A stretch of DNA of 64,000 nt, taken from assembly GCA_030429235.1 (NCBI GenBank), contig JAUIDB010000003.1:124001-188000 (forward strand), in the 5' to 3' direction. The notes below the pieces were generated by a model that was not told where the DNA came from, did not search any database, and saw nothing but the letters and a program-made list of their open reading frames with translations. Below are positions 2,602-55,788 of this stretch, one piece after another. The first letter of the stretch is position 1, and each line of letters begins with the position of its first letter. Both the position numbers and the translations under genes were made by a program. Origin of the DNA: Thermoanaerobaculia bacterium (GTDB lineage Bacteria; Acidobacteriota; Thermoanaerobaculia; Multivoradales; JAIOJS01).

Positions 2602-3840
2602 CTACTCGTACCGCAACGCTTCGATCGGGTCGAGTTCTGCGGCTCGGCGGGCCGGGTAGACGCCCGACACGAGACCGACGGAGACCGCGACGCCGGCCGC
2701 CAGGAAGACGGAACCCGCCGTGACGATGGTCGTCCAGTTGGCCGCGGCGGCGACGATCCGAGCGATGGCGATTCCCATGGCGATCCCCGCGAGTCCGCCG
2801 AGCACACTGAGCGTGAAGGCCTCGACGAGGAACTGCACGACGATGTCCCGGCGTCGGGCGCCGATGGCTCGACGGACCCCGATCTCTCGAGTGCGTTCCA
2901 TGACGCTGGCCAGCATGATGTTCATGATACCGATGCCACCGACGATCAACGAAATTCCCGCGATACAGCCCATCACCAGATTGAACATCTGCTGGGTGCG
3001 CTGACTCTCGGCCAAGAGAGCCTCGGGCACGACCAGTTCGTAGTCGTCAGCTCCGGCGTGGAGGTGCTCCAGAAGGTCGTCGATGACCACAGCCGCGGCC
3101 CGGGTAGAGGCCCCCGTACGAACGCGGACCACGAGTTCGTCGACCGGCGAAGCGAGAAGGTCTCGATCGAACTTGCGGCGTGCAGTCGACAGCGGCAAGA
3201 ACAGGGTCGTGGACACCGAACCCAGCTCCACGCCCTGGAACGACGCCTCGTCGCTAACCGTGGGAGCCAGGACACCCACGACTTCGAGCCAGACGTCGTC
3301 CACCTTGACCTCGCGCCCCACTGCGGGCTCGAAACCGAAGAGTGAGCGTCGCACCTCGCTTCCGAGTACCACCACCTGGGCGTGGTGCCGCTGGTCGAGG
3401 GGATCGAGGAAGCGCCCTTCGGAGAGTTCCAACGCCACCAACTCGCGATAGATTGGTTCGACCCCGAGCACGGTGGCCGCGACCGAACCACCGCGCGAGA
3501 AGATACGGCGAGCGTCGATCTCTACCACCGGGGCCACCAGCTCGACCTCGGGCATGGTGTCGACGATCGCCTCGGCGTCGCGGAGCGAGACCCCGACCGA
3601 GGTGCGACGAACCTCCTCCGCCTCGGACTCCCGGAGATCGCGAGCTCGTACCACGACGTTCTCGAGCCCGAGCCGCGTAATCGCCTCCAGAGCCTCGCGC
3701 TCCGCCCCGGCCCCGATCGACAGCATGGAGATGACGGCTCCGACGCCGAAGACGATACCCAGAGCCGTCAGCGAGGAACGCAAAGTATGAGCTCGCAGGT
3801 TCCCGAGGGACCCGATCACGACGGTCCGCAGGTCGATCAC
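2602..3840 (-). CDS. MacB/FtsX-type ABC transporter permease
   Basis: This 412-residue protein has the MacB permease layout: a TM helix after about 20 residues (RSSLTALGIVFGVGAVISM), a large periplasmic MacB-PCD domain (about 45-275), then three C-terminal TM helices. The conserved FtsX segment MNIMLASVMERTREIGVRRA is near 300-320. The family drives mechanotransmission-type efflux with a periplasmic adaptor and needs a separate or fused ATPase. No nucleotide-binding domain is fused here and none is encoded nearby. The GTG start at 3840 overlaps the adaptor stop (GTGA), so translation is probably coupled. The permease assignment is firm; its ATPase partner is unknown. Confidence 0.9.
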   Translation of the reverse strand: MIDLRTVVIGSLGNLRAHTLRSSLTALGIVFGVGAVISMLSIGAGAEREALEAITRLGLENVVVRARDLRESEAEEVRRTSVGVSLRDAEAIVDTMPEVELVAPVVEIDARRIFSRGGSVAATVLGVEPIYRELVALELSEGRFLDPLDQRHHAQVVVLGSEVRRSLFGFEPAVGREVKVDDVWLEVVGVLAPTVSDEASFQGVELGSVSTTLFLPLSTARRKFDRDLLASPVDELVVRVRTGASTRAAAVVIDDLLEHLHAGADDYELVVPEALLAESQRTQQMFNLVMGCIAGISLIVGGIGIMNIMLASVMERTREIGVRRAIGARRRDIVVQFLVEAFTLSVLGGLAGIAMGIAIARIVAAAANWTTIVTAGSVFLAAGVAVSVGLVSGVYPARRAAELDPIEALRYE

Positions 3841-5147
3841 GAGGTACCTCGTGCCGGCGGAGTCTCGCCCTCGGTCGGAGCGCTCTCTCCCCTCGGTCCC
3901 AAGGCCAGGGGTTCGAGACCGATCACTTCCCCGGCTTCGAGACCCGCCGTGACCACGACCCGCGAGCGGCTCCCGACCCCGAGTTCGACCTCGCGACGTT
4001 CGAACCCAGCCCCGCGGGCCACATAGAGGTAGGTGCGCTCGCCAACTTCGAGAACCGCCTGGCGTGGGACCGCCACCGCCGACTCCTCTCGGTGCAGGTA
4101 GATCGTCGCCACCACCCGTTGCCCCGGCTTCATCGCCGTCGCATCCGTCGAGTCCAACTCCACCGTGACGCCGAAGTACTGGACAGGGGAACCCCGACGA
4201 CGAGGTTGCGCGATGGCGTCGACCCGCGCCACTCGAGCCGAATGCACCTCCTCGGGACGCGACTCGATCACGACCTCAGCCTCCAGGCCCTCGGTCACTC
4301 CGCCGGCATCCGCCTCCAGGACGGAAACCTCGGCCTGCAGGGTATCGACGGCGGGAATCTCGCCGATCGGCCGACCCCGCCACAGCTCCTGTCCCACTTC
4401 GACCGGCTCCCCACGCCAGTCGCGGGCCCTCAAGAACAGTCCCGCATGGGGAGCCCGCACCACGAGGGCAGTCAGTCCCGACTCCGCCTCTTCGATCTCG
4501 AAGATCGCTTGCCGTTTCTCGACCCCCAAGATCCCCAGGTCGCTGCCGATCCGACGCTCCTCGGTGACGAGTTGTTCCTCGGCGTGTTCCATCCGGTCCT
4601 GCGCCAACTTCTCGTCCGTCTGCGACTCCAGAATCTCGTGTCGCGACCACACCGTTTCGTCGTCGGTGCGAAAGCGCTGGGCGAGTTCGAGTTCGAGTTC
4701 GGAAACCCCGAACTGCGTCGTGAGGCGCGCCTCGCCGACCTCACCCTGCGACGTCACCTCGAGAATCCGGTACTCGGCTGACGTCAGCGCCGACCGTCCG
4801 CTGGCCAAGCGGTCCTCGAGGGCCCCGGAATCGAAGCGTGCCACTACATCCCCCTCGGCCACGACGGTGGCGTCAGCGGCCACCCAGGCAATTCTCACCG
4901 AGTTCTTGACCTCGGCCGGAACGCTGAGAGTGACCACGTCCCGCGCCTCGAGCGTCCCCTCGGCGGTCACCTTCTGCACGAAACGACCGGACTCGACTCG
5001 AAGCGTCGAGATCGGGGATTCCGTACCGCATCCCCAGATCCCTCCGAGCACCCCGGTAAGGAACAGGATGAGTGGGTACGACCGCCGGCTCGGACGGTCC
5101 GGCACCCGGTCTAGGGTCGCCCCCTGCTGCCGGCGGAGACGGTTCAC
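3837..5147 (-). CDS. HlyD-family periplasmic adaptor (third of three), lipoprotein
   Basis: This is a membrane fusion protein of about 436 residues. The GTG at 5147 is chosen because it overlaps the TGA of the preceding adaptor (GTGA); the open frame extends further upstream, but only inside that gene. A signal segment ends in a lipobox (GGIWGC). It is followed by a lipoyl-like half (KVTAEGTLEARDVVTLSVP), an alpha-hairpin region and a beta-barrel with a C-terminal membrane-proximal domain (VPRQAVLEVGERTYLYV). Such adaptors link an inner-membrane pump to an outer-membrane exit duct. It lies directly before the permease, also with overlap, and is the most likely direct partner. Confidence 0.85.
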   Translation of the reverse strand: MNRLRRQQGATLDRVPDRPSRRSYPLILFLTGVLGGIWGCGTESPISTLRVESGRFVQKVTAEGTLEARDVVTLSVPAEVKNSVRIAWVAADATVVAEGDVVARFDSGALEDRLASGRSALTSAEYRILEVTSQGEVGEARLTTQFGVSELELELAQRFRTDDETVWSRHEILESQTDEKLAQDRMEHAEEQLVTEERRIGSDLGILGVEKRQAIFEIEEAESGLTALVVRAPHAGLFLRARDWRGEPVEVGQELWRGRPIGEIPAVDTLQAEVSVLEADAGGVTEGLEAEVVIESRPEEVHSARVARVDAIAQPRRRGSPVQYFGVTVELDSTDATAMKPGQRVVATIYLHREESAVAVPRQAVLEVGERTYLYVARGAGFERREVELGVGSRSRVVVTAGLEAGEVIGLEPLALGPRGESAPTEGETPPARGTS

Positions 5148-43221: not shown

Positions 43222-44448
43222 CTATCCGAAGTCGTCGAAGAGGATGTTCTCGGGCTCGACCCCGAGGTCGTTCAGCATCTGCATGCACGCCTTGAGCATC
43301 ATCGGTGGACCGCACAGGTAGTACTCGATGTCCTCGGGAGCCGGATGATCTTGCAGGTAGTTGTCGTGGAGTACCTGGTGGATGAACCCGGTATAACCGT
43401 CCCAGTTGTCCTCTTCGAGCGGTTCGGAGAGCGCCAGATGCCACTCGAAGTTGGGATTCTCGGCCTGGATCATGTCGAAGTCCTCCTGGTAGAAAGCCTC
43501 GCGCTTGCTGCGGGCTCCGTACCAGAACGTGACCTTGCGGTCGGTCGACAGCCGTCGGAACTGATCGAAGATGTGAGAGCGCATGGGCGCCATTCCGGCC
43601 CCACCCCCGATGAAGCACATCTCGGCGTCCGTCTCCTTGGCGAAGAATTCTCCGAACGGACCTGAAATCGTGACTTCGTCTCCCGGCTTCAGATTGAAGA
43701 TGTAGGACGACATGATGCCGGGCGGGGTGCCTTCAGGCGCCCTCGGAGGGGGCGAGGCGATCCGGACGTTCAGCATGATGACGCCACGTTCTTCGGGGTA
43801 GTTGGCCATGGAGTAGGCCCGGGTCACGGTCTCTTCGACCTTGGATACGTACTGCCACTGACTGTACTTGTCCCAGTCACCGCGGTACTCCTCGGCGATG
43901 TCGAAGTTCTTGTACTCGACAACGTGGGGCGGACACTGGATCTGGATGTAGCCACCGGCCCGGAAAGGAACCGACTCCCCCTCGGGCAACTCGAGGATCA
44001 GCTCTTTGATGAACGTCGCGACGTTGTCGTTCGACTTCACCTTGCACTTCCACTGCTGGACCGAGAAGATCTCCGGCTCCAGCTCGATCTTCATGTCGGA
44101 CTTCACCTTGACCTGGCAGGAGAGGCGACATCCCTCGCGGGCCTCACCTCGACTGATGTGGCTGGTCTCGGTGGGGAGCATCGCCCCGCCACCTTCGAGC
44201 ACGTCGACCTTGCAGACACCGCAGGTGCCCTTCCCGCCACACGCCGAAGGGATGAAGATCCGGTTGGCGGCCAGGGTGCCCAGCAGGGTGCCGCCAGCCT
44301 GAGTCACCAGCGTGTTGTCGGGATCGTCGTTGATCAGGATCTGAACGTCACCCATGGCCACGAGCCGGTTGCGGGCCACCATCAGGACCCCCACCAGGGC
44401 CACGATGACGAAGGTGAACATGAATACGCCGAGCGCGATCGTCATCAT
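43222..44448 (-). CDS. nqrF: Na+-translocating NADH:quinone reductase subunit F
   Basis: A 408-residue NADH-oxidising subunit. An N-terminal TM helix ([17 protein letters not shown]) is followed by a 2Fe-2S ferredoxin domain with [18 protein letters not shown] and later GCRLSCQ (about 70-112). The FAD domain has RAYSMANYP near 210, and the NADH-binding part has [14 protein letters not shown] near 275 and [13 protein letters not shown] near 380. Electrons pass NADH, FAD, 2Fe-2S and on to the NqrD/E iron site. It is sixth in the operon. Confidence 0.97.
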
Positions 44449-44461
44449 CTGTCAGAGTCCC

Positions 44462-45079
44462 CTAGAGCTGGATTCCGGCGAAGGCCATGAAGCCGATCGC
44501 CATCAAGCCGGTGATGATGAAGGTGATCCCCAGGCCGCGCAGGCCGGGTGGAATGTTGCTGTAGCGAAGTCGCTCGCGAATGGCGGCCAGTCCGATGATC
44601 GCCAGGGCCCAACCGATCCCGGAGCCGATGCCGTAGACCGTACTCTCGCCGAGCGTGTAGTCCCTCTCGACCATGAACAGCGAGGCGCCCAGAATGGCGC
44701 AGTTCACAGCGATGAGCGGCAGGAACACTCCGAGCGCGCCGTACAGCGCCGGAGCGTAGCGGTCGAGCGTCATCTCGACGATCTGCACCATCGCGGCGAT
44801 GGTACCGATGTAGGTCAAGAAGCCGAGGAATGAGAGGTCGTACTGCGCCAGGCTGGGGTGAATCCACTCCAGCGATCCCTCCTTGAGGAGGTAGTTGTAG
44901 ATCAGGTTGTTCATCGGGACGGTGATCGTCAACACGAACGTCACCGCCATGCCGAGACCGATCGCCGTATCGACCTTCTTGGAAACCGCCAGGAAGGAAC
45001 ACATGCCCAGGAAGAAGGCCAGGGCCATGTTCTCGACGAAAATCGCCGTCAGGGCGATGCTGAGATAGTGCTCGAGCAT
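44462..45079 (-). CDS. nqrE: Na+-translocating NADH:quinone reductase subunit E
   Basis: A 205-residue membrane protein with six TM helices, homologous to NqrD. It starts [20 protein letters not shown] and contains [20 protein letters not shown] (about 26-45, with the Cys of the intramembrane iron site) and [19 protein letters not shown] (about 115). It forms an antiparallel pair with NqrD that carries electrons across the membrane. It follows nqrD by 3 nt. Confidence 0.97.
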
Positions 45080-45082
45080 TCT

Positions 45083-45709
45083 CTATTCCTCCTCCACCTG
45101 TTCGGGCTTCCAGACCCTGAGGATCCAGATGAAGAACCCGATGAGGAAGAAGGCTCCGGGGGAAAGAACCATCAGCCCGTTGGGGGTGTACCAACCGCCC
45201 TCGGTGGCCAGCTGGAAGATCTGCTTGCCAAAGAGCGTGCCGGAGCCAAACAACTCGCGGAAGAACGCGGTCAGCATCAAGATCACCGCGTAGCCGAGTC
45301 CATTGCCGATCCCGTCGATCAGACTGAGTCCGGGCGGGTTCTGCATCGCGTAGGCCTCGGCACGCCCCATCACGATGCAGTTGGTGATGATGAGACCGAC
45401 AAAGACCGACAGCTGCTTCGAGATCTCGAAGACGTAGGCCTTCAGCACCTGGTCGGTCACGATCACCAACGAGGCGATGATGGTCAGCTGCACGATGATC
45501 CGGATGCTGTTGGGGATCTGGTCACGCAAGACGCTGACGAAGAAGTTCGACAGCGAGATGACCACGACCACCGCGATGCTCATCACCATGGCGGTGTCCA
45601 TCTTGGTGGTCACGGCGAGCGCCGAGCAGATCCCGAGCACCTGGAGGGCGATCGGGTTGTTGTTGAACAGCGGATCGATGAGCGCCTCACGCGCCTTGTT
45701 CGAAGCCAT
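45083..45709 (-). CDS. nqrD: Na+-translocating NADH:quinone reductase subunit D
   Basis: 208 residues from the ATG at 45709, which overlaps the nqrC stop (TGATG). The frame is open upstream but without meaning. Features are [20 protein letters not shown] (about 15-34, iron-site Cys), [20 protein letters not shown] (about 100-120, second Cys) and about six TM helices. With NqrE it forms the Na+-linked electron relay. The C-terminus is a charged stretch (KPEQVEEE). Confidence 0.97.
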
Positions 45710-46488
45710 CAGGCAGCCCTCCTTGCGGCCTGCTTGTCGATGTACGGGCCGAAACCCTCGGGGCCGAGCCAGAACTGTACGAGATAGGAGACCCCACGGC
45801 TGGTGATGGTCGCCCCTGAGAGCCCGTCGACCTTGTAGGGCTCCTCGGCCGGCGGACCGGCGCGACCCTTCACCACTTCGATCTCCGGCTCCCCGTCGGG
45901 ACCGAAGATCTTGCGGCCCGGCCACAGCGACTTCCAACCCGGGTTGTCGACTTCGCCCCCGAGACCCGGGGTCTCTTTGTGTTCGTAGAAGGTGATCCCG
46001 GCCACGGTTTGAAGGTCTGCTTCCAGGGCGATGAAACCCCGCAGGGTCGACCACAGCCCCTTGCCCTCGACCGGGAAGATGTACTTTTCGACCTCGCCGC
46101 CGTCACCCTTGACCAGATAGACGAGGGCGAGGTTGGGAACCCGCTGCACGCGAGCGAGGTTGTCCGGGGCCTTTTCGCTGGTGGCTGGATCCTGGGCGGC
46201 TTTCTTCTGGTCGAACGTGGCGGGATCCACATCGTCGCGGATCTCTCCGGTGGCGAGCTCGATCACCTGGGCTTCGATGGTGGCAAAACGCTCCTCGATC
46301 ACCTCGGGCGGCAGCTGCTCGCCGGGCATCCGCATGCCCGCCGCTTCGAGTACGTTGCTCTGCTTGTCGAGCAGGACGTTGACATCCTGCCGTTCCTTGA
46401 GCTGTACCGCCGAGCCCGACACGACCACCGCGCACACGATGCACACCAGGGTGGCGAAGAGCAGGGTGTATCCGACGCTACGCTGCAT
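45709..46488 (-). CDS. nqrC: Na+-translocating NADH:quinone reductase subunit C
   Basis: A 259-residue subunit with one N-terminal TM helix ([18 protein letters not shown]) and a periplasmic FMN-binding domain. The flavin attachment site is [15 protein letters not shown] near 223-237, where the Thr of SGAT is esterified to FMN by ApbE. Other family segments are [19 protein letters not shown] and [15 protein letters not shown]. It overlaps nqrB by 11 nt. Confidence 0.96.
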
Positions 46489-47692
46489 AACGGGCCATCC
46501 TTCGCTTGATGTTGGACTGGACCACGAAGTAGTCGATGGTGGGTGCGAAGACGTTCATCAGGAGAATCGCCAGCATCATCCCTTCGGGGTAGGCCGGGTT
46601 GATGATCCGGATCAGCACCACGAGCATACCGATCATCACTCCGTAGACCCAGCGCCCACGACTGGAGTGCGGAGCCGATACCGGGTCCGTGGCCATGAAC
46701 GCCATACCGAAGGCCCAGCCTCCGAGCAGGAACTGCCACCAGAACGGGACCCCGAAGAAGGGGTTGGTCGGAGAGTCGATCACGTTGAGCAGCAGTCCCA
46801 TGGCGGCGGTTCCCAGCGTGACGCCGGCCATGATGCGCCAAGAACCCACGCGGGTGACGATGAGCAGCAGGGCTCCCGCCAGGCAGGCCAGGGTCGAAGT
46901 CTCTCCCATCGAGCCGGGAATCAGACCGATGAAGGCGTCCCACCAGTCCAGGGTTAGCGCCTCGGTGCCAGTCTCGGCGGCGCGAGCCAGCCAGGTAGCG
47001 CCGCTCACGCCGTCGGCTCGGGTCACGGCGGCGGTCCAGACCTTGTCGCCAGAGATTTCGGCCGGGTAGGCGAAGAAGAGGAACGCGCGCGCCGTCAGGG
47101 CCGGGTTGAGGATGTTCATCCCCGTACCACCGAAGATCTCCTTGCCGACCACCACGCCGAAGCTGATGCCGACGGCCACCTGCCAGAGGGGGATCGTCGG
47201 AGGAAGGATCAGCGGAAAGAGCATCCCGGTAACGAAGAATCCCTCGTTGACCTCGTGGTTCCGGACGGTCGCGAAGAGGACCTCCCAGAGCCCTCCCACC
47301 GCGAAGCAAACCACCAGCACCGGCACGTAGTACAGGGCACCGTGGACCAGACAGGCCAGCAGGTTCGTCGGATCGAGGGCGAAGCCGAGCTTGGCCATGG
47401 CCGCCGTCTGCCAGGTCTCGAGGGCCGGGGCCCCCAGTGAAACCGCCAGATTCGCCTGGTACCCGGTGTTGTACATCGCCATGTAGATGCACCCGAGCAG
47501 CGAGACCACCACGGTCATCATGACCCGCTTGAGGTCCATGCCGTCGCGGACGTGCGACGGCCCGTCGGTCACTTCCCCCGGTGTGTAGAGAAAGGTGTCC
47601 TGCGCCTCCCAGAGGGGGTAAAGCTTCTCGAGTTTGCCCCCCTTCTCGAACATCGGCGCCTGCTTGTCCAGCAGTTGACGGAGAAACTTCAT
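46478..47692 (-). CDS. nqrB: Na+-translocating NADH:quinone reductase subunit B
   Basis: A 404-residue integral subunit with about ten TM helices. The covalent FMN site is [13 protein letters not shown] near 222-235. Other features are [20 protein letters not shown] near 50, [20 protein letters not shown] near 180, and [20 protein letters not shown] near 338. NqrB carries the last flavins of the chain and the Na+ path and contacts quinone. It overlaps nqrA by the TGATG junction. Confidence 0.97.
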
Positions 47693-49071
47693 CAGCTCTC
47701 CTTCTCGATGATGGTGAGCACTTCGCGAAGGCAGCGCCCGAAGTCATTCTTTCCCGTGTCGACGAACGTGCACAGGGCGACGTCCTCCTCCTCGAGTTCC
47801 AACACGCCCAGCTTCTCGGCGGTTTCGACGTCTCGCATGAGCAAGGAGCGCAGCAGCGGCGTGGCCATGATGTCGAAGGCCATCACCCGTTCGTAGGCCC
47901 CAAGCGGCATGATCGCCCGGTGGGAGCCGTACGAGGTGGTCGTCATGTCGAACTTCTTACCCGGTAGCAGGCGCGAGGCGAAGAGGTTGGTGACCGAAAA
48001 CCGATCGGTACCGGGAGCCAACCACCCCAGGAACCGCCGCTCGCGATCCTCCGCCAACAGAGAAATCTGCTGGTGGTAGCGACCGAGGAAGCCGTGGACC
48101 TCCCCCATCGCTCGGCGGCCGGCGAGGACGGAACCAGAGACCGCCCGGAGGTCCTCGGCGTTCGACTCTCCCGCGACCAGTTCGTCGACCGAGGCCCCTA
48201 GGCGGGTCCTGAGCAGGCGAGGCCGCTCGGCCGCGGGGCCGGACAGGGCTACGACCCGATCGACGTGCAGAGTGCCGGAGGCGAACAGGTGTCCCACCGC
48301 GATCACGTCCTGGAACCCGATGTGCCATACGAAACGCTCGCGACTCACCGGCGCCAGCGTGTGGATGTGGAAACCGACGGTGCCCGACGGATGCACCCCC
48401 GAGAAACGCTCGTGGCGGATCCGCGCGTCGTTCGGAATCGCCACGTCGGTATCGGCATCGGTACACACGAACACGTCACCCTCGGTGAGGGTCGACAGCA
48501 CCGTCAGCCCGAGTTGGAAGCGCTCCGACTCACCGGCCATCACGGCGCCGACATCGAGCGCGAGCGGGCTCGAGTCCACCGCGGTCACGAAGATCGAATG
48601 GGGCGTGGTCTCGGGATCGGCCACGCGGCCGAACGGGCGAGCCCGCAGCGCGGTCCACAGCCCCGATTCCAGAAGCAGTGCACGCGCCTCGTCGCGCTTG
48701 AGCTGCGAACTCGGCGTGTTCCGGTAGGCCTTGAAGCTCACCGAGTCCGGACCGCCAGCGCGGCCTTCGATCTCGCTACGGCTGGTTTCGATCACCAGCG
48801 ACTGGAAGGCTCGGCGTGCCCCGCGGTGGATCGCCACCACTCGCCCGGCGGCGGGTGCCGTGTACCGAACCCCTGGAGTCTTCTTGTCGTCAAAGAGAAG
48901 CTGCCCTCGTCGCACGTCTTCGCCGACCTTGACGTGCATCGTCGGTCGCATGCCGACGTAGTCGGCGGCCAGGATCGCAACCCGGCGCGGTGGTGCCGCG
49001 CGCTCGATCTCCTGGACCGGTTCTCCGGTGATGGGCAGCCGGAGTCCTCGCTTGGTCTTGTACAAACCCAT
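47692..49071 (-). CDS. nqrA: Na+-translocating NADH:quinone reductase subunit A
   Basis: 459 residues from the ATG at 49071. The frame continues upstream to 49371, but the family start ([18 protein letters not shown]) fixes the site. It contains the barrel-sandwich segment [20 protein letters not shown] (about 65), [30 protein letters not shown] (about 250) and [15 protein letters not shown]-like sequence near 400. NqrA is the cytoplasmic peripheral subunit. It is the first gene of the eight-gene nqrABCDEF-apbE-nqrM operon. The leader has a 10-bp direct repeat (GTTCTGCTTC/T) just before the ATG. Confidence 0.96.
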
Positions 49072-49179
49072 GTTCTGCTTCGTTCTGCTTGTGGTGGATG
49101 GTTCGAACGAGCGGACGACTACCCAGCCCGCACCTCGGAGGCTCGATTGTTCCACAGACGAACTTGGAAAATCCAGAGG

Positions 49180-49185
49180 TATGAT
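49180..49185 (+). promoter_or_regulatory. Possible -10 of the CBS-protein promoter
   Basis: TATGAT lies 28 nt before the ATG of the CBS gene, and AAGGAG at 49203-49208 is a good ribosome-binding site. No strong -35 is found at 16-18 nt. The 142-nt gap also has to serve the divergent nqr operon, for which no clear promoter was seen. Confidence 0.3.
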
Positions 49186-49213
49186 GCGGGCAACAAGCCA
49201 ATAAGGAGAGACC

Positions 49214-49756
49214 ATGTTCGACTTGGATATCCCCCGAGCCCGCGACACGATGGCCGCCGCCGCGTTCACCGTCTCTCCGGACACCGATCTCCTGGCTGCG
49301 ATCGACCAGCTGGTGACGCGCAAGGCTGCGGCGGTGCCGGTCGTCGATGGGGAGCGCTGCCTCCTCGGCATGTTGACCGAGAAGGACTGTCTGCGCCTGA
49401 TCTCCGCGGCTGCCTTCGATCAACCGCGCATCGGACCGGTCCGCGACTTCATGTCGAAGGTTTCGGTCCAGCTCGAGCCGACGATGGATCTCTTCCGAGT
49501 CGCCGAACTGTTTCTGAGTACCAACTTCCCGATGCTGCCAGTGGTCGAGGACGGCCGGCTCGTCGGATGCATCACCCGCCAACAGATGCTGGTGGCGGTC
49601 CAAGCCGTCGGCCGGCAACTCGACGCTCAGCAGCAGCGGATCGAGACCAACGCCTCCCAATCCACTTCGCGACCCCGCTCGATCGAGCAGATGCAACAGA
49701 CTGCCGCCCGGCTCTCCCCCGGACAGCTCGCGAGCAAGCTGGGGCGACGTTCCTGA
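49214..49756 (+). CDS. CBS-domain pair protein
   Basis: A 180-residue soluble protein with two CBS motifs: about 10-68 (TMAAAAFTVSPDTDLLAAID, VPVVDGERCLLGMLTEKD) and about 78-135 (DFMSKVSVQLEPTMDLFRVA, LPVVEDGRLVGCITRQQML). A short hydrophilic tail follows. CBS pairs bind adenine nucleotides or S-adenosyl ligands and gate partner proteins. No catalytic domain is attached, so it is a stand-alone energy or ligand sensor. It diverges from nqr and is 31 nt upstream of the LOG-like gene. Confidence 0.9.
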   Translation: MFDLDIPRARDTMAAAAFTVSPDTDLLAAIDQLVTRKAAAVPVVDGERCLLGMLTEKDCLRLISAAAFDQPRIGPVRDFMSKVSVQLEPTMDLFRVAELFLSTNFPMLPVVEDGRLVGCITRQQMLVAVQAVGRQLDAQQQRIETNASQSTSRPRSIEQMQQTAARLSPGQLASKLGRRS

Positions 49757-50588: not shown

Positions 50589-51887
50589 TCAGTAGCTGAA
50601 CCGAAGCCGAAGGTAGGCGTTGGAAGCGTCCTCCAGCTGACCGAAGAAGGTGAAGGGGTCCTGCCCGCCGAGAACACTGGCCCCCAGCGTCAACGACCAC
50701 TGATCGTTGTGTCGATAGTGCAAACTGGGCCGGAAGTAGTAGTCCTGATCGCTCGGAGAGTAGAAGGTAAAGAGAGACACCGTGTAGCGGCCCAGGCTCG
50801 AGCGATAGGTCAACCGGTTGGTCAAGAGGTGCCGTACCTCGTCGGGGTCGAACCTCTGGTCGCGCGAGTTCCGACGCAGCGCGCGGTAATCGAGCGTCCA
50901 GTCGAGGGCGTACTGCAGACCGACTGTGACGCCCTTCCGCGCCTCCCACTCGTATCCCACGAGAGTGCGCAACTGATCGTTGGGTACCAGCGGATCGTCA
51001 CCGTCCCGGTCGTCGATCGAATCGTAGTAGGCCAACTCGGCGTGAAGCACTCCGACCCCGGCCGACTGTCGCAGACTCGCCCCCCACGAGTTCAGCGGGG
51101 CAAAGGTCGGGAGCAGACTCGTCGACGCAGTCTCCAACAGCGCCGAAGGACCCTTGAAGAATCCGTGGTAGCCGTAGAGCGCGAGTTCGCGCCCGCGGAC
51201 CGTACGGAACAGCCGGAGCGCGAACTCGGCCTGCTCGAAGGTGCGAGCCGGTTCGATCGCTGCAGCCGGAGGCCGCGGGGCGACGAGGCGCCCAGCCGGG
51301 CCGGAGAAGAAGGAGAACCGCTCTCCCGTCAGGTAGACATCCGGCGTGAAGACCGGAGTCCAGACCAGATCCAGGTTGACCTTGCCGAGGTAGGCGGTCA
51401 AGCGAACCGAGTCCGCCGGGGACTTGAGGTACTCGTCGTCGCGCCCCGCGAAGAAGGAGACGAAGTCCTTGGGGAAGAGATCGTTCAGAAACACCAGGTC
51501 TCCGGTGCCCCAGGTCTGGACCTGGCGGCCTAGCCTCAACTCGACCTTCGGCCCCAGCGAGGTGGAAAAACTGAGCTCTCGCACCGCGAGCCGCCACTCC
51601 TCCTCGACGGCGTCGTAGGCGAGGTCTCCGCTCCAGGCAATCGCACGGTCGCCGAACTGCTTCTCGGTCTCGCTGCGAACTGTCAGCTCGGCCAACGTCT
51701 CGCCATCCTCGAGCCTCGGATCCGCGTCCCAGCGGGTTCCGAACCCGGCCTCGACGAAGCCGGTCCAAACCAATCCCTCATCCTGGTCGCCCCAGTCGTC
51801 CTCCCAGAGATCCTCCTGAGCGGTGAGGACCGATGGTGCGAGCAGGAACCAGCTCGCCAGGAGCACGAGAAGAACGCGGTACTTCAC
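50589..51887 (-). CDS. Outer-membrane beta-barrel protein (DUF1302-like)
   Basis: A 432-residue protein with a signal peptide (VLLVLLASWFLLAPSVLTAQ) and a mature part of alternating amphipathic strands ending in YLRLRFSY, a classic barrel C-terminus with a terminal aromatic. Segments such as ELRLGRQVQTWGTGDLVFLN near 120 and KDFVSFFAGRDDEYLKSPAD resemble DUF1302 barrels found with MMPL-type RND exporters. It is 9 nt after the LolA-like gene. It is probably the outer-membrane part of the export route. The substrate is unknown. Confidence 0.8.
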   Translation of the reverse strand: MKYRVLLVLLASWFLLAPSVLTAQEDLWEDDWGDQDEGLVWTGFVEAGFGTRWDADPRLEDGETLAELTVRSETEKQFGDRAIAWSGDLAYDAVEEEWRLAVRELSFSTSLGPKVELRLGRQVQTWGTGDLVFLNDLFPKDFVSFFAGRDDEYLKSPADSVRLTAYLGKVNLDLVWTPVFTPDVYLTGERFSFFSGPAGRLVAPRPPAAAIEPARTFEQAEFALRLFRTVRGRELALYGYHGFFKGPSALLETASTSLLPTFAPLNSWGASLRQSAGVGVLHAELAYYDSIDDRDGDDPLVPNDQLRTLVGYEWEARKGVTVGLQYALDWTLDYRALRRNSRDQRFDPDEVRHLLTNRLTYRSSLGRYTVSLFTFYSPSDQDYYFRPSLHYRHNDQWSLTLGASVLGGQDPFTFFGQLEDASNAYLRLRFSY

Positions 51888-51896
51888 GGTCGCTCC

Positions 51897-52712
51897 TCAG
51901 TCCGTGGGACGCTGCAGCCATTGGCGCGGAGGGTTGCGAAGCGACCTCTCGGTGAATACCTCGGCCGGCAACCCCAGGTCGTACTTGATGTAGCGAAACT
52001 GCATGTCGGTCTGGCCGCCACTGAGCAGATCCGAGACCCGGCTGGCCGTCACGGTCGGGTTGCCGTCGATCTTTTCGACGGCGAGCACCTCGACCCGGCG
52101 GTAGATCTGACCCGCTTCGTTGTGGTACTCGATCTTCGTCGGCAGGAAGGTCGATCGATCGATCCACGTCACGTAGCGGTGAAACTCGACGTCAGCATCC
52201 TCCCGCGGCTCGTGTTCTAGAACGTAGTGGGTCTCGGTCGCCTCGACGAACCGGTGAAGGTCCTCGCTGGGACTCCGACCGGAGACGTCCTCGTAGAAGT
52301 AGTGGGCACCGACGAAGCTGGTTCGTTTGTCTCCGGCCGAGATGCGTTTCACCAGATCCAATCCGGGCAGATACAGCCAACGGTCATCATCTCGGTCGGC
52401 ATGCTTGTGCACCAAGAAGACGGTTCCCCGCACGTCGGAGGGCTGGCTGAAGGACACGAGGAACTTCTGATCCCCACCGTCCTCGACGTCGCTCCGCAAG
52501 ACCGTGAACTGCCGGCGCTGCTGGCGCCCCTGAGCGTCGGCGATGATCATTCGCACCTCCGACCGACCATCCGCACCCGCGTAGTAGGCGGCGAGATTGG
52601 CTCGGGCGACGATCGCGTCGGCGTCCTCGAGGTTCGACTGGGCGAGCCCCGAACTCCCGGTACCGACAAGGAAGAGAACTCCTAGGGTGAGAAGGATTCG
52701 TTGACGGGTCAT
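51897..52712 (-). CDS. LolA-like outer-membrane lipoprotein-sorting protein
   Basis: 271 residues from the ATG at 52712, which overlaps the RND stop (ATGA). The signal peptide is ILLTLGVLFLVGTGSSGLAQ. The mature protein shows the LolA/LolB-type fold found in DUF4292-like proteins: SEVRMIIADAQGRQQRRQFT, FLVSFSQPSDVRGTVFLV, DRWLYLPGLDLVKRISAGDK, FYEDVSGRSPSEDL and KIEYHNEAGQIYRRVE. Such proteins act as periplasmic lipid or lipoprotein carriers and often pair with MMPL exporters. Between an RND pump and a barrel, it is the likely periplasmic shuttle. Confidence 0.85.
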   Translation of the reverse strand: MTRQRILLTLGVLFLVGTGSSGLAQSNLEDADAIVARANLAAYYAGADGRSEVRMIIADAQGRQQRRQFTVLRSDVEDGGDQKFLVSFSQPSDVRGTVFLVHKHADRDDDRWLYLPGLDLVKRISAGDKRTSFVGAHYFYEDVSGRSPSEDLHRFVEATETHYVLEHEPREDADVEFHRYVTWIDRSTFLPTKIEYHNEAGQIYRRVEVLAVEKIDGNPTVTASRVSDLLSGGQTDMQFRYIKYDLGLPAEVFTERSLRNPPRQWLQRPTD

Positions 52713-55294
52713 GACGACACCTCCTGATTCAGTTGGGCCAAGGGCAGGTCGGGGAACAGCCACGGACCGGCCGCGGTCACCAGCGCCGGCAGCAGCAACA
52801 GTGTGGTGAGCCCCGAGATCGCCATGATCGCCGCCATGAACGAACCGACGGTGATGTAGGGCACCAGGGGGGCGAAGAAGAGCGGAGTGAATCCGATCGC
52901 GATGACGATGGCGTTCCTGGCGATCGCTCGCGCCGGCTCCTCGAACAGAGCCTCGAGTGCGATGCCTTGGGAACCCGACTCCCGCAGGAGGGAACGGGTC
53001 CGGGCGATGAAGTGGATGGCGAAGTCGACCGACAGCCCCAGCGTCAAGGCGGAGAGCACGGCGATCGGCATGTCGTAGTCCTTGCCGATCCAACCGATCG
53101 CGCCGTAGACCCCGACGATGGTCAAGGACAGGGGCACCATGGCGAGTAAGCCCAAACGCCAGCTGCGAAACAGGAGGGTCATGATCACCAGCACCGCCAC
53201 GAAGGCACCGAGCAGGCTCTTGAGCATGCCCTGGACCATCGACTGCTGCCAGACGACGTTGATGTAGGACTTGCCGGCCCAGGCCAACTCCAGACCGGCG
53301 GGCAGCGGCTGCGCCTCGAGTTCGCGATCGAGAGCTTGGAGGACCTGGCTCATGTCCTGGTTGTCGCCGCTCTTCAGCTGCAACCAGATCGCGGTCGAGG
53401 CGAAGTCCGGTGTCACCATGTGCCAGAGGTCCTGCGGCCGGTGGGACGACTGATACTGCAGGAGCGATTGGGCCACTGCCGGAGCCGTGTCCGGAACCCG
53501 GTACTCCTCGGCACGACCTCCCCGCAGTTCTCGGTGCACGACCTTGACGATGTCGGGCAGGGCATTGGTCTTACCGACCAGCCCGGTGGTGGCCAGCGCA
53601 GCCTGCAGCGATTCGATCGTCCGCAGACTCTCGGGACGCTGAAAGTAGCGGCCGGTACTCTGCGCCGACTCGGTCAGAGCGAGCAGTCGGGCCAGGCGAT
53701 CCTGGTCCTCGGGGTCCTCGACGTCGAACAGCGCGTCGTCGATCACCGCGATGAGGTCGCCATACCAGGCATCGAGGTCCTCGTTCGATAGCGCCGGGGC
53801 CGTCGCGAGTCGCGGCTCGATCAGCGCCGCGACCTCCGGTGCCAGCTCGCTCAGAGCGGCCTCGGCCGCCCGCTGGAACTCGGCCCGGGCCTCGTCGTTG
53901 CGAAACGTCAGCACCAGAAACGCGTCGTAGGTCCCCGCGAAGTGCTGGTTGAGGACCCGATCCGCCACCCGGATCGGATGGTTCTCCTTGAACCAGCGCA
54001 CCGGATTGTCGTTGATCTGAATCCGAGCCACTCCCAGAGCGCTGACGACAGCGAGGAGCAGGGCCACGCCGATGATCGGCTTGGCGTGGACCACAGCCGT
54101 GCGCCCCAGTCGCCGAAGGAGCCGCGCCAGGAGGCTCTCGCTCTCCAGCACTTCGCCCCGAGCTGCGAGTGCTTCCAGTGATGATGGAGACATGCGAACC
54201 ACGTAGGCAGGGATCAGGGTGATCGTCAACAGGAAGGCGACCAGAATTCCGAAGGCGACGAAGGCACCGAACACCTGCACCGGTGGAATAGGCGTGAGGA
54301 GCAACGAGAGGAAACCCAGGGCCGAGGTCGCGGAGGTAAAGAGCATCGGCGTGAACAACTCCTCGACGACGTTGCGAATCACTCGTCGCACGTCAGCCCC
54401 CGGACGGTAGCGATCGGCGAATTCCGACATGATGTGGACCGAGTCCACTACCGCGATCGGCATGAGGAAGATCGGGATCATCGAACTCATGATGTGCACC
54501 GAGAAACCGAGCGCGGTCAGTAGGCCCATGCTCGCGACGACGGTCGCCACGGCCACCAGCATCGGCACGGTGACGAGTTGCACGCTGCGAAAGAAGTAGA
54601 ACATCAAGAGGAAGATCATCAGACCGGCCAACGGCGCCGAGATCCCCATCTGGACGAACATATCGTGTCCGAAGGTATCCTCGGCCACCGGCAGGCCAGT
54701 GATATGGAAGTCGTCGTCCGAGTCCAGACCGGCCGCCAGGTCCCGGATCGCCAGGGAGAGGGGATGGCTCAGGTCCTTGCTGACGATGGGAACGTAGATG
54801 GCAGCCGCCCTACCGTCCCCCGAGACCAGGGTGTCCCGTAGGAGGGGAAGCCGGTCGACCTTGGCCCGCAGCTCCGCCGCTTGGTCCAGGGTCACTGGAG
54901 CTTCCTGCATCATCCACTCGAAACGGAGGACTCCCTCCCCCTCCTGCGAGATGTTGTCCGCCTGGGCCAGCGACATGAGGTCGGGCGGCACCACTCCTTC
55001 CAGCGCCAGAATGGAGTGACTGAGGCGATGGAGCGCCGCGAGCGACCGGGGGTTGTAGATTCCATTCGGATCCCGTTCGTTGACCACCCCGACCACGATG
55101 GCATCGTGGAGGGAGAACCGCCTCTCCACCTCGTTGTGGAAGAGGCGGTCGATCTGGGTCGACGGCAGCATGTTCTCGGGGTCGGTGTCGATCTGGGTCC
55201 GCCCCAGAAAGGCGCCGAGCGCCAGTACCGACAGCAAAACGATCCCATAGACGGCCCGGGGGCGACGGATGGAGAATTCGGTCAAGGTGGTCAT
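52709..55294 (-). CDS. MMPL/HpnN-type RND exporter
   Basis: An 861-residue RND protein with two repeats of one TM helix, a large periplasmic loop and five TM helices. TM1 is near 18-32 (GIVLLSVLALGAFLG). The first sterol-sensing-type bundle is about 215-360 (PLAGLMIFLLMFYFFRSVQL), with IPIFLMPIAVVDSVHIMSEF; the second is about 700-850, with LTLGLSVDFAIHFIARTRS. No tripartite AcrB signature is seen; the arrangement matches MMPL/HpnN lipid exporters driven by the proton gradient. It is the first gene of a four-gene operon that diverges from the ArsR gene and has a near-consensus promoter. Confidence 0.93.
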   Translation of the reverse strand: MTTLTEFSIRRPRAVYGIVLLSVLALGAFLGRTQIDTDPENMLPSTQIDRLFHNEVERRFSLHDAIVVGVVNERDPNGIYNPRSLAALHRLSHSILALEGVVPPDLMSLAQADNISQEGEGVLRFEWMMQEAPVTLDQAAELRAKVDRLPLLRDTLVSGDGRAAAIYVPIVSKDLSHPLSLAIRDLAAGLDSDDDFHITGLPVAEDTFGHDMFVQMGISAPLAGLMIFLLMFYFFRSVQLVTVPMLVAVATVVASMGLLTALGFSVHIMSSMIPIFLMPIAVVDSVHIMSEFADRYRPGADVRRVIRNVVEELFTPMLFTSATSALGFLSLLLTPIPPVQVFGAFVAFGILVAFLLTITLIPAYVVRMSPSSLEALAARGEVLESESLLARLLRRLGRTAVVHAKPIIGVALLLAVVSALGVARIQINDNPVRWFKENHPIRVADRVLNQHFAGTYDAFLVLTFRNDEARAEFQRAAEAALSELAPEVAALIEPRLATAPALSNEDLDAWYGDLIAVIDDALFDVEDPEDQDRLARLLALTESAQSTGRYFQRPESLRTIESLQAALATTGLVGKTNALPDIVKVVHRELRGGRAEEYRVPDTAPAVAQSLLQYQSSHRPQDLWHMVTPDFASTAIWLQLKSGDNQDMSQVLQALDRELEAQPLPAGLELAWAGKSYINVVWQQSMVQGMLKSLLGAFVAVLVIMTLLFRSWRLGLLAMVPLSLTIVGVYGAIGWIGKDYDMPIAVLSALTLGLSVDFAIHFIARTRSLLRESGSQGIALEALFEEPARAIARNAIVIAIGFTPLFFAPLVPYITVGSFMAAIMAISGLTTLLLLPALVTAAGPWLFPDLPLAQLNQEVSS

Positions 55295-55337: not shown

Positions 55338-55365
55338 AGTATATCACTTTTCACTAATTTAGCAA
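55338..55365 (-). promoter_or_regulatory. Promoter of the RND-LolA-barrel-DUF2892 operon
   Basis: On the minus strand TTGCTA (55365-55360) and TATACT (55343-55338) are 16 nt apart. The start point would be near 55331, about 36 nt before the RND ATG. The -35 lies inside the first 19-bp repeat (55354-55372), so a protein bound there would block RNA polymerase. Confidence 0.7.
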
Positions 55366-55402
55366 CAGCTATTCAATTGACTCCTAATTTAGAATCTGCT
55401 AT
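55354..55402. promoter_or_regulatory. Twin 19-bp direct repeats, probable ArsR operators
   Basis: Two copies of CTAATTTAG-N5-GCTAT lie at 55354-55372 and 55384-55402, exactly 30 bp apart, in an AT-rich island of a GC-rich region. The 5-nt centres differ (CAACA and AATCT) while the outer 14 positions are identical, the usual pattern for a protein-binding site. One copy covers the -35 of the RND operon; the other covers the spacer and -10 of arsR. This suggests one repressor controlling both directions. Confidence 0.65.
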
Positions 55403-55405
55403 ATT
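55377..55405 (+). promoter_or_regulatory. Promoter of the ArsR-family regulator gene
   Basis: TTGACT (55377-55382) and TATATT (55400-55405) are separated by 17 nt, close to the sigma-70 consensus and unusual for this GC-rich genome. Transcription would start near 55412, about 38 nt before the ATG at 55450. The second operator repeat covers the spacer and the first bases of the -10, so autorepression is expected. Confidence 0.75.
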
Positions 55406-55449
55406 TGTCGCCTAGGGAACCCCAGGGAGGCCCACTCCCCAACCGACCC

Positions 55450-55788
55450 ATGGCAGAATACGACCGACCACACGCCGATCAGCCCTCGCCCCCGCTGACC
55501 GAGATGCGGCGTCATGCGGCGAGCGCGGCCGGACTGATGAAGACCCTCGGCAACGAGAGTCGACTGTTGATCCTTTGTGCCCTCGCGGAAGGGGAACGCT
55601 CGGTGGGCGAACTCAACGAGGTCGTGCCGCTAAGCCAGTCGGCCCTCTCGCAGCAGCTGGCCCGGCTCCGACGGGACAAACTCGTCACGACCCGCCGAGA
55701 GTCACAGAGTATCTACTACTCGCTCGCCCCCGGCCCGGTCGACGAGGTGCTCCAACTTCTCCACTCGATCTACTGCGCGCCGGGCTAG
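55450..55788 (+). CDS. ArsR-family regulator, SqrR/BigR/YgaV-like persulfide sensor
   Basis: 112 residues from the ATG at 55450; a TTG at 55405 overlaps the -10 and is rejected. The winged-helix core includes LGNESRLLILCALAEGERS, the recognition helix SQSALSQQLARLRR (about 62-75) and the wing TTRRESQSIYYSL. Only two Cys occur, C43 and C109. In SqrR (C41/C107) and BigR (C42/C108) the same two positions, also 66 residues apart, form a tetrasulfide link on reaction with persulfides and release DNA. The arsenic (alpha3 CxC) and SmtB zinc ligands are absent. It probably represses itself and the divergent RND operon. Confidence 0.88.
   Translation: MAEYDRPHADQPSPPLTEMRRHAASAAGLMKTLGNESRLLILCALAEGERSVGELNEVVPLSQSALSQQLARLRRDKLVTTRRESQSIYYSLAPGPVDEVLQLLHSIYCAPG

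Follow-up and report, generated by a model that had tools for sequence, protein, structure and literature searches.

What does a small ArsR-family regulator with a lone pair of cysteines respond to, and which genes does it control? The question is raised by a gene in a 64,000-nucleotide stretch of the genome of a Thermoanaerobaculia bacterium (Acidobacteriota; contig JAUIDB010000003.1, positions 124,001 to 188,000 of the forward strand; hereafter the window), which faces away from genes for an MMPL-family pump, a LolA-like periplasmic protein and an outer-membrane beta-barrel. Our analysis makes it probable that the protein is a HlyU-type repressor, released by persulfides, which acts on its own gene and on a trans-envelope exporter for apolar molecules that resembles the Ame system of Castellaniella defragrans.

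The cysteine pair and kinship of the regulator

The regulator is encoded as follows.

55450..55788, + strand: HlyU-type dithiol ArsR regulator, 112 amino acids, with C43 and C109 (translation; HlyU as best match in the PDB; tree)

The first-pass annotation of this gene had proposed sulfane-sulfur sensing from a protein with only two cysteines, spaced as in SqrR and BigR, and lacking metal-site residues. Translation of the open reading frame bears out the count, with C43 in RLLILCALAEGE and C109 in SIYCAPG. In phmmer alignments the 66-residue spacing is indeed that of SqrR and BigR, and of HlyU likewise, with similar flanks, and both residues align with the cysteines of these three proteins at the alpha-2 and alpha-5 positions. 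Because the fold is homologous and without insertions or deletions the spacing is given by the fold itself, and the informative part is therefore the identity of both residues as cysteine. Such a pair is not automatic among close relatives, since NolR is near our protein in sequence yet carries Asp (ILDSL) where our protein has the first cysteine. Nearly all of 83 relatives conserve C109; C43 belonged to one of the scan patterns, so that its conservation in this set is partly selected. Loci sampled via the neighbouring pump rather than via ArsR yielded six simple ArsR genes, of which five keep both cysteines.

Ranked by phmmer against solved structures, Vibrio cholerae HlyU comes first (1.9e-25) and V. 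vulnificus HlyU second, followed by SqrR (4e-20), NolR, BigR (4e-18) and YgaV (1e-15), with the metal sensors SmtB, NmtR and CzrA lower (∼1e-9 to 1e-7). The earlier likeness to SqrR and BigR thus stands for the cysteine positions, while the closest characterised relative is HlyU instead. SqrR of Rhodobacter capsulatus and BigR of Xylella and Agrobacterium are dithiol persulfide sensors whose targets are sulfide oxidation genes; in contrast to these more distant proteins, the regulator in the window faces an exporter without an adjoining sulfide:quinone oxidoreductase (SQR) or dioxygenase gene. On the NCBIfam equivalog model for BigR (NF040642) it scores 86.6 bits, far under the curated cut-off of 155, and we therefore reject BigR as its identity.

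An alternative is that this ArsR/SmtB-family protein senses metal or arsenic. It passes the broad NCBIfam HTH_metalloreg subfamily model, although the name of that model denotes a fold and not a ligand. We regard this alternative as highly improbable: neither the alpha-3 CxC motif nor the alpha-5 Asp/His set was seen in the 112 residues, in agreement with the first reading, the protein is distant from SmtB, CzrA and CmtR, and the neighbouring pump lies outside the metal transporter families. A tree with metal sensors had been named beforehand as a test. In ours (54 rows, 104 columns, with deeper forks that lack resolution) the regulator forms a group (support 99/98) with the protein of its congener and with twelve rows from gammaproteobacteria, most of them Woeseiaceae, apart from the metal sensors. 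Motif, sequence search and tree thus reject a metal-sensor identity. By phmmer ranking and tree the protein falls with sensors of reactive sulfur species rather than of metals or peroxide, and its placement as a further member of the dithiol, reactive-sulfur-sensing ArsR group (cluster 4 of the sequence similarity network: SqrR, BigR, YgaV, HlyU) is well supported by sequence comparison.

In its own phylum, a match to the regulator at 1e-14 occurs in 7 of 396 sampled genomes (3 of 210 genera) and, among 40 relatives, only in genomes of the window's genus. The three other ArsR-like matches in the same genome reach only 34–36% identity, and many Woeseiaceae carry ArsR proteins ∼66–77% identical to ours. 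Horizontal transfer, in one direction or the other, is the simple reading of this distribution; the G+C content of the module is similar to that of the window (0.638 vs 0.647).

Operator boxes and predicted divergent promoters

The gap between regulator and pump holds the following elements.

55338..55365, − strand: predicted sigma-70 promoter of the MMPL operon, TTGCTA-N16-TATACT
55354..55362: operator box 1, exact CTAATTTAG, overlapping the promoter predicted for the MMPL operon
55369..55377: operator box 2, degenerate CTATTCAAT, in 15-bp phase
55377..55405, + strand: predicted sigma-70 promoter of arsR, TTGACT-N17-TATATT
55384..55392: operator box 3, exact CTAATTTAG, within the −35/−10 spacer of the promoter predicted for arsR
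55399..55407: box 4, degenerate CTATATTTG, in 15-bp phase and holding the predicted arsR −10

The two predicted promoters, where 0.1 would be expected from shuffled sequence, are divergent, and each overlaps one of the two exact boxes, which lie 30 bases apart. The predicted −10 box (55400–55405) would place the upstream TTG at 55405 before the start of transcription, and ATG 55450 is thus the better fit for the start codon of arsR.

When 82 upstream regions were searched de novo for motifs, TAAATTAG-N6-CTAATTTA emerged. In the alignment, three to four boxes of the form CTAAWTTAG repeat every 15 bp, an arrangement conserved between Woeseiaceae and the Acidobacteriota-type genome of the window. 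No shuffle in 2000 matched the window's array, and 45 of the 82 loci have five or fewer mismatches over three boxes, against a shuffle minimum of eight. The array is absent upstream of the pump in more distant pump carriers. Across the genome (4.85 Mb, up to three mismatches) the two-box pattern is found in this intergenic region only, with zero in the control; the regulator therefore looks like a local one with a single target region.

The exact box also connects the regulator to HlyU, as the footprinted V. cholerae HlyU oligo O1 holds CTAATTTAG on its bottom strand (PMC4330345). The likeness to HlyU of V. cholerae and V. vulnificus thus extends from the best solved-structure match and the cysteine pair with its spacing to the operator word. 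The systems differ in that the boxes in the window form a phased array, and in that Vibrio HlyU activates toxin genes whereas here the sites lie over both core promoters, which suggests that the reduced regulator would repress both units, the export operon included, rather than activate them.

The likely divergent export operon and its possible cargo

Divergent from arsR lie three genes on the opposite strand.

52709..55294, − strand: MMPL/HAE3-type resistance-nodulation-division (RND) transporter, 861 amino acids (NCBIfam TIGR00921 5.8e-53, under its cut-off; Pfam MMPL over its cut-off)
51897..52712, − strand: LolA-like periplasmic protein, 271 amino acids (Pfam PF17131 4.5e-52; predicted model, pLDDT 86.7, near LolA3 of Porphyromonas gingivalis and DUF1329 structures)
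50589..51887, − strand: outer-membrane beta-barrel, weakly DUF1302-like, 432 amino acids (DUF1302 9e-4, under its cut-off; predicted barrel model, pLDDT 88.8, with porin/AlgE folds)

The start of the LolA-like gene overlaps the stop of the pump gene by 4 bases, and the three genes likely form an operon, back to back with arsR. The same four genes, arsR and the three for pump, LolA-like protein and barrel, are found together again in the congener (L012), in a further family of this phylum (L118) and in many gammaproteobacteria. No sequence relative of the barrel was found in the PDB, and its fold neighbours, general porins and AlgE, reach TM scores of 0.4–0.55, too weak for naming a substrate from the fold. 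Going by the other proteins of the window, ∼9 cysteines would be expected in the ∼1560 residues of the three proteins, which contain none. This might suggest an adaptation to reactive sulfur, but HAE1 pumps from other loci are similarly cysteine-poor, and the cysteine-free conduit is therefore not used as evidence. Two pump reading frames elsewhere (L108:5872-9396 and L109:8013-11720, both − strand; ∼1175–1236 amino acids) carry a long N-terminal extension that reads like a putative cyclic-nucleotide-binding domain. Beyond the barrel, window positions 43222-49371 (− strand) encode NqrA together with a flavoprotein that resembles NqrF; both probably belong to an operon for a Na+-translocating NADH:quinone reductase.

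The nearest described cassette is AmeABCD of C. defragrans, in which an HAE3 RND pump is joined by a periplasmic protein of the LolA superfamily and an outer-membrane protein of the DUF1302 type (PMC6394551). Judged by protein families, and with the DUF1302 match of the barrel under its cut-off, the operon resembles this make-up minus AmeC, as no fourth gene of the AmeC type (COG4447) was seen beside the other three in the window. It further differs from AmeABCD in that PF17131 takes the place of a full DUF1329, no terpene genes were seen here, and a dithiol ArsR stands beside it as the presumed controller.

Among 80 loci picked by ArsR, the pump lies within 5 kb in 19, and nine of these 19 have an SQR gene too. 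In many Woeseiaceae a 430-amino-acid gene, on the pump's strand and directly between regulator and pump, encodes an SQR near that of Acidithiobacillus ferrooxidans (4e-152), and DUF302, rhodanese and TauE genes recur around many of the relatives. In the window itself, no sulfurtransferase or inorganic sulfur transport gene was identified beside the regulator. A DUF302 gene of ∼130 amino acids lies directly downstream of arsR in ∼26 of the 80 loci (L013, L023, L038 and other Woeseiaceae). HAE1 (AcrB-type) RND pumps lie within 5 kb of a HlyU-type dithiol arsR in 16 of the 80 (L058, L061, L063, L072, L075, L081 and others), and the RND link of HlyU-type regulators may thus be wider than the MMPL cassette.

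To avoid selection via the regulator, 369 gammaproteobacterial genomes were scanned by the pump alone, which gave 16 regions. A LolA-like gene was detected adjoining the pump in 14, an SQR-family gene near the pump in six (L103, L104, L105, L111, L113, L115) and a dithiol ArsR in five (L104, L105 (∼5 kb away), L107, L110, L111). If one SQR is assumed for every 3 Mb and the target spans 12 kb, a region would have an SQR by chance in ∼0.4% of cases by a rough estimate, so that six of 16 is far above chance. In L113 an ArsR-rhodanese fusion (3814-4539, − strand) lies ∼3.7 kb from the SQR-family gene and the same pump cassette.

These neighbourhoods bear on two further alternatives, whose likelihoods overlap on the cargo question with that of the main explanation and need not add up to one. 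In the first, the two cysteines would form an ordinary disulfide switch that answers to peroxide or to oxidants in general, without persulfide selectivity; a redox switch was proposed for HlyU by earlier in silico work (PMC4330345). The genes around the relatives are sulfur genes and not peroxide genes, and we consider such a switch quite improbable. The main rival on the cargo question accepts a persulfide-sensing regulator but has the operon export a general hydrophobe, a lipid or a toxic organic compound, sulfide stress merely harming membranes and the SQR link being indirect; we give it close to an even chance. LolA-like and HAE3 proteins are associated with lipids and hydrophobes, half of the pump-picked regions have no sulfur link, and AmeABCD confers tolerance to apolar terpenes (PMC6394551). 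On the other side stand the SQR, dithiol ArsR or ArsR-rhodanese fusion near eight of the 16 pump-picked regions and the Woeseiaceae SQR gene that directly separates arsR from the pump gene and shares the strand of the latter. Because of this SQR link in relatives we hypothesize apolar sulfane sulfur as the cargo.

A possible sulfur-triggered export pathway

Sulfane-sulfur sensing, as first proposed, is supported by sequence kinship, the cysteine pair, the operator word held in common with HlyU and the sulfur genes near relatives. In the mechanism that we favor, a persulfide-released repressor, the reduced ArsR dimer would bind the phased CTAAWTTAG boxes across both divergent promoters and repress its own gene together with the MMPL-LolA-barrel operon. 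Accumulating persulfide or polysulfide would then form a polysulfide bridge between C43 and C109, and the bridged regulator would release the DNA and allow the operon to be induced. Such release would parallel that of HlyU, which in vitro loses DNA binding after reacting with persulfides, whereas neither H2O2 nor GSSG (oxidized glutathione) reacts with it (PMC10509353). The operon products would carry apolar molecules from the inner to the outer membrane in the manner of Ame, and the cargo may be hydrophobic sulfur or some other product that arises under sulfide stress.

Several observations weigh against this explanation. The middle box of the array (box 2) is degenerate in the window, HlyU of Vibrio works as an activator, and seven or eight of the 16 pump-picked regions are without a nearby sulfur gene or dithiol ArsR. 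In addition, two queries found no SQR as a source of persulfide in the window genome: the first gave only a 24% partial match, and the second no match, a weak negative as it was run without a positive control. A more specific version, in which the operon serves solely to export apolar sulfane sulfur (S8 or long polysulfanes) across the whole envelope, persulfide-induced via the dithiol ArsR, SQR-coupled in many carriers and horizontally exchanged between Woeseiaceae-like gammaproteobacteria and this lineage, is a tentative proposal that we consider rather unlikely as a whole.

While the sensor type is already known, its coupling to an Ame-like exporter appears to be undescribed: searches of open-access literature, with incomplete coverage, turned up no account of an Ame-like HAE3 cassette paired with a persulfide-type sensor, often with SQR. 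To our knowledge it is not settled how hydrophobic sulfur, such as the products of SQR, crosses two membranes. The association of regulator, exporter and SQR points to an undescribed sulfur-triggered export pathway, and the HAE3 cassette, conserved, linked to SQR and probably controlled by a repressor of the persulfide type, is a named candidate for hydrophobic sulfur export that is open to deletion and assay. The phased operator consensus, in turn, provides a means to locate the targets of HlyU-type sensors in other genomes.
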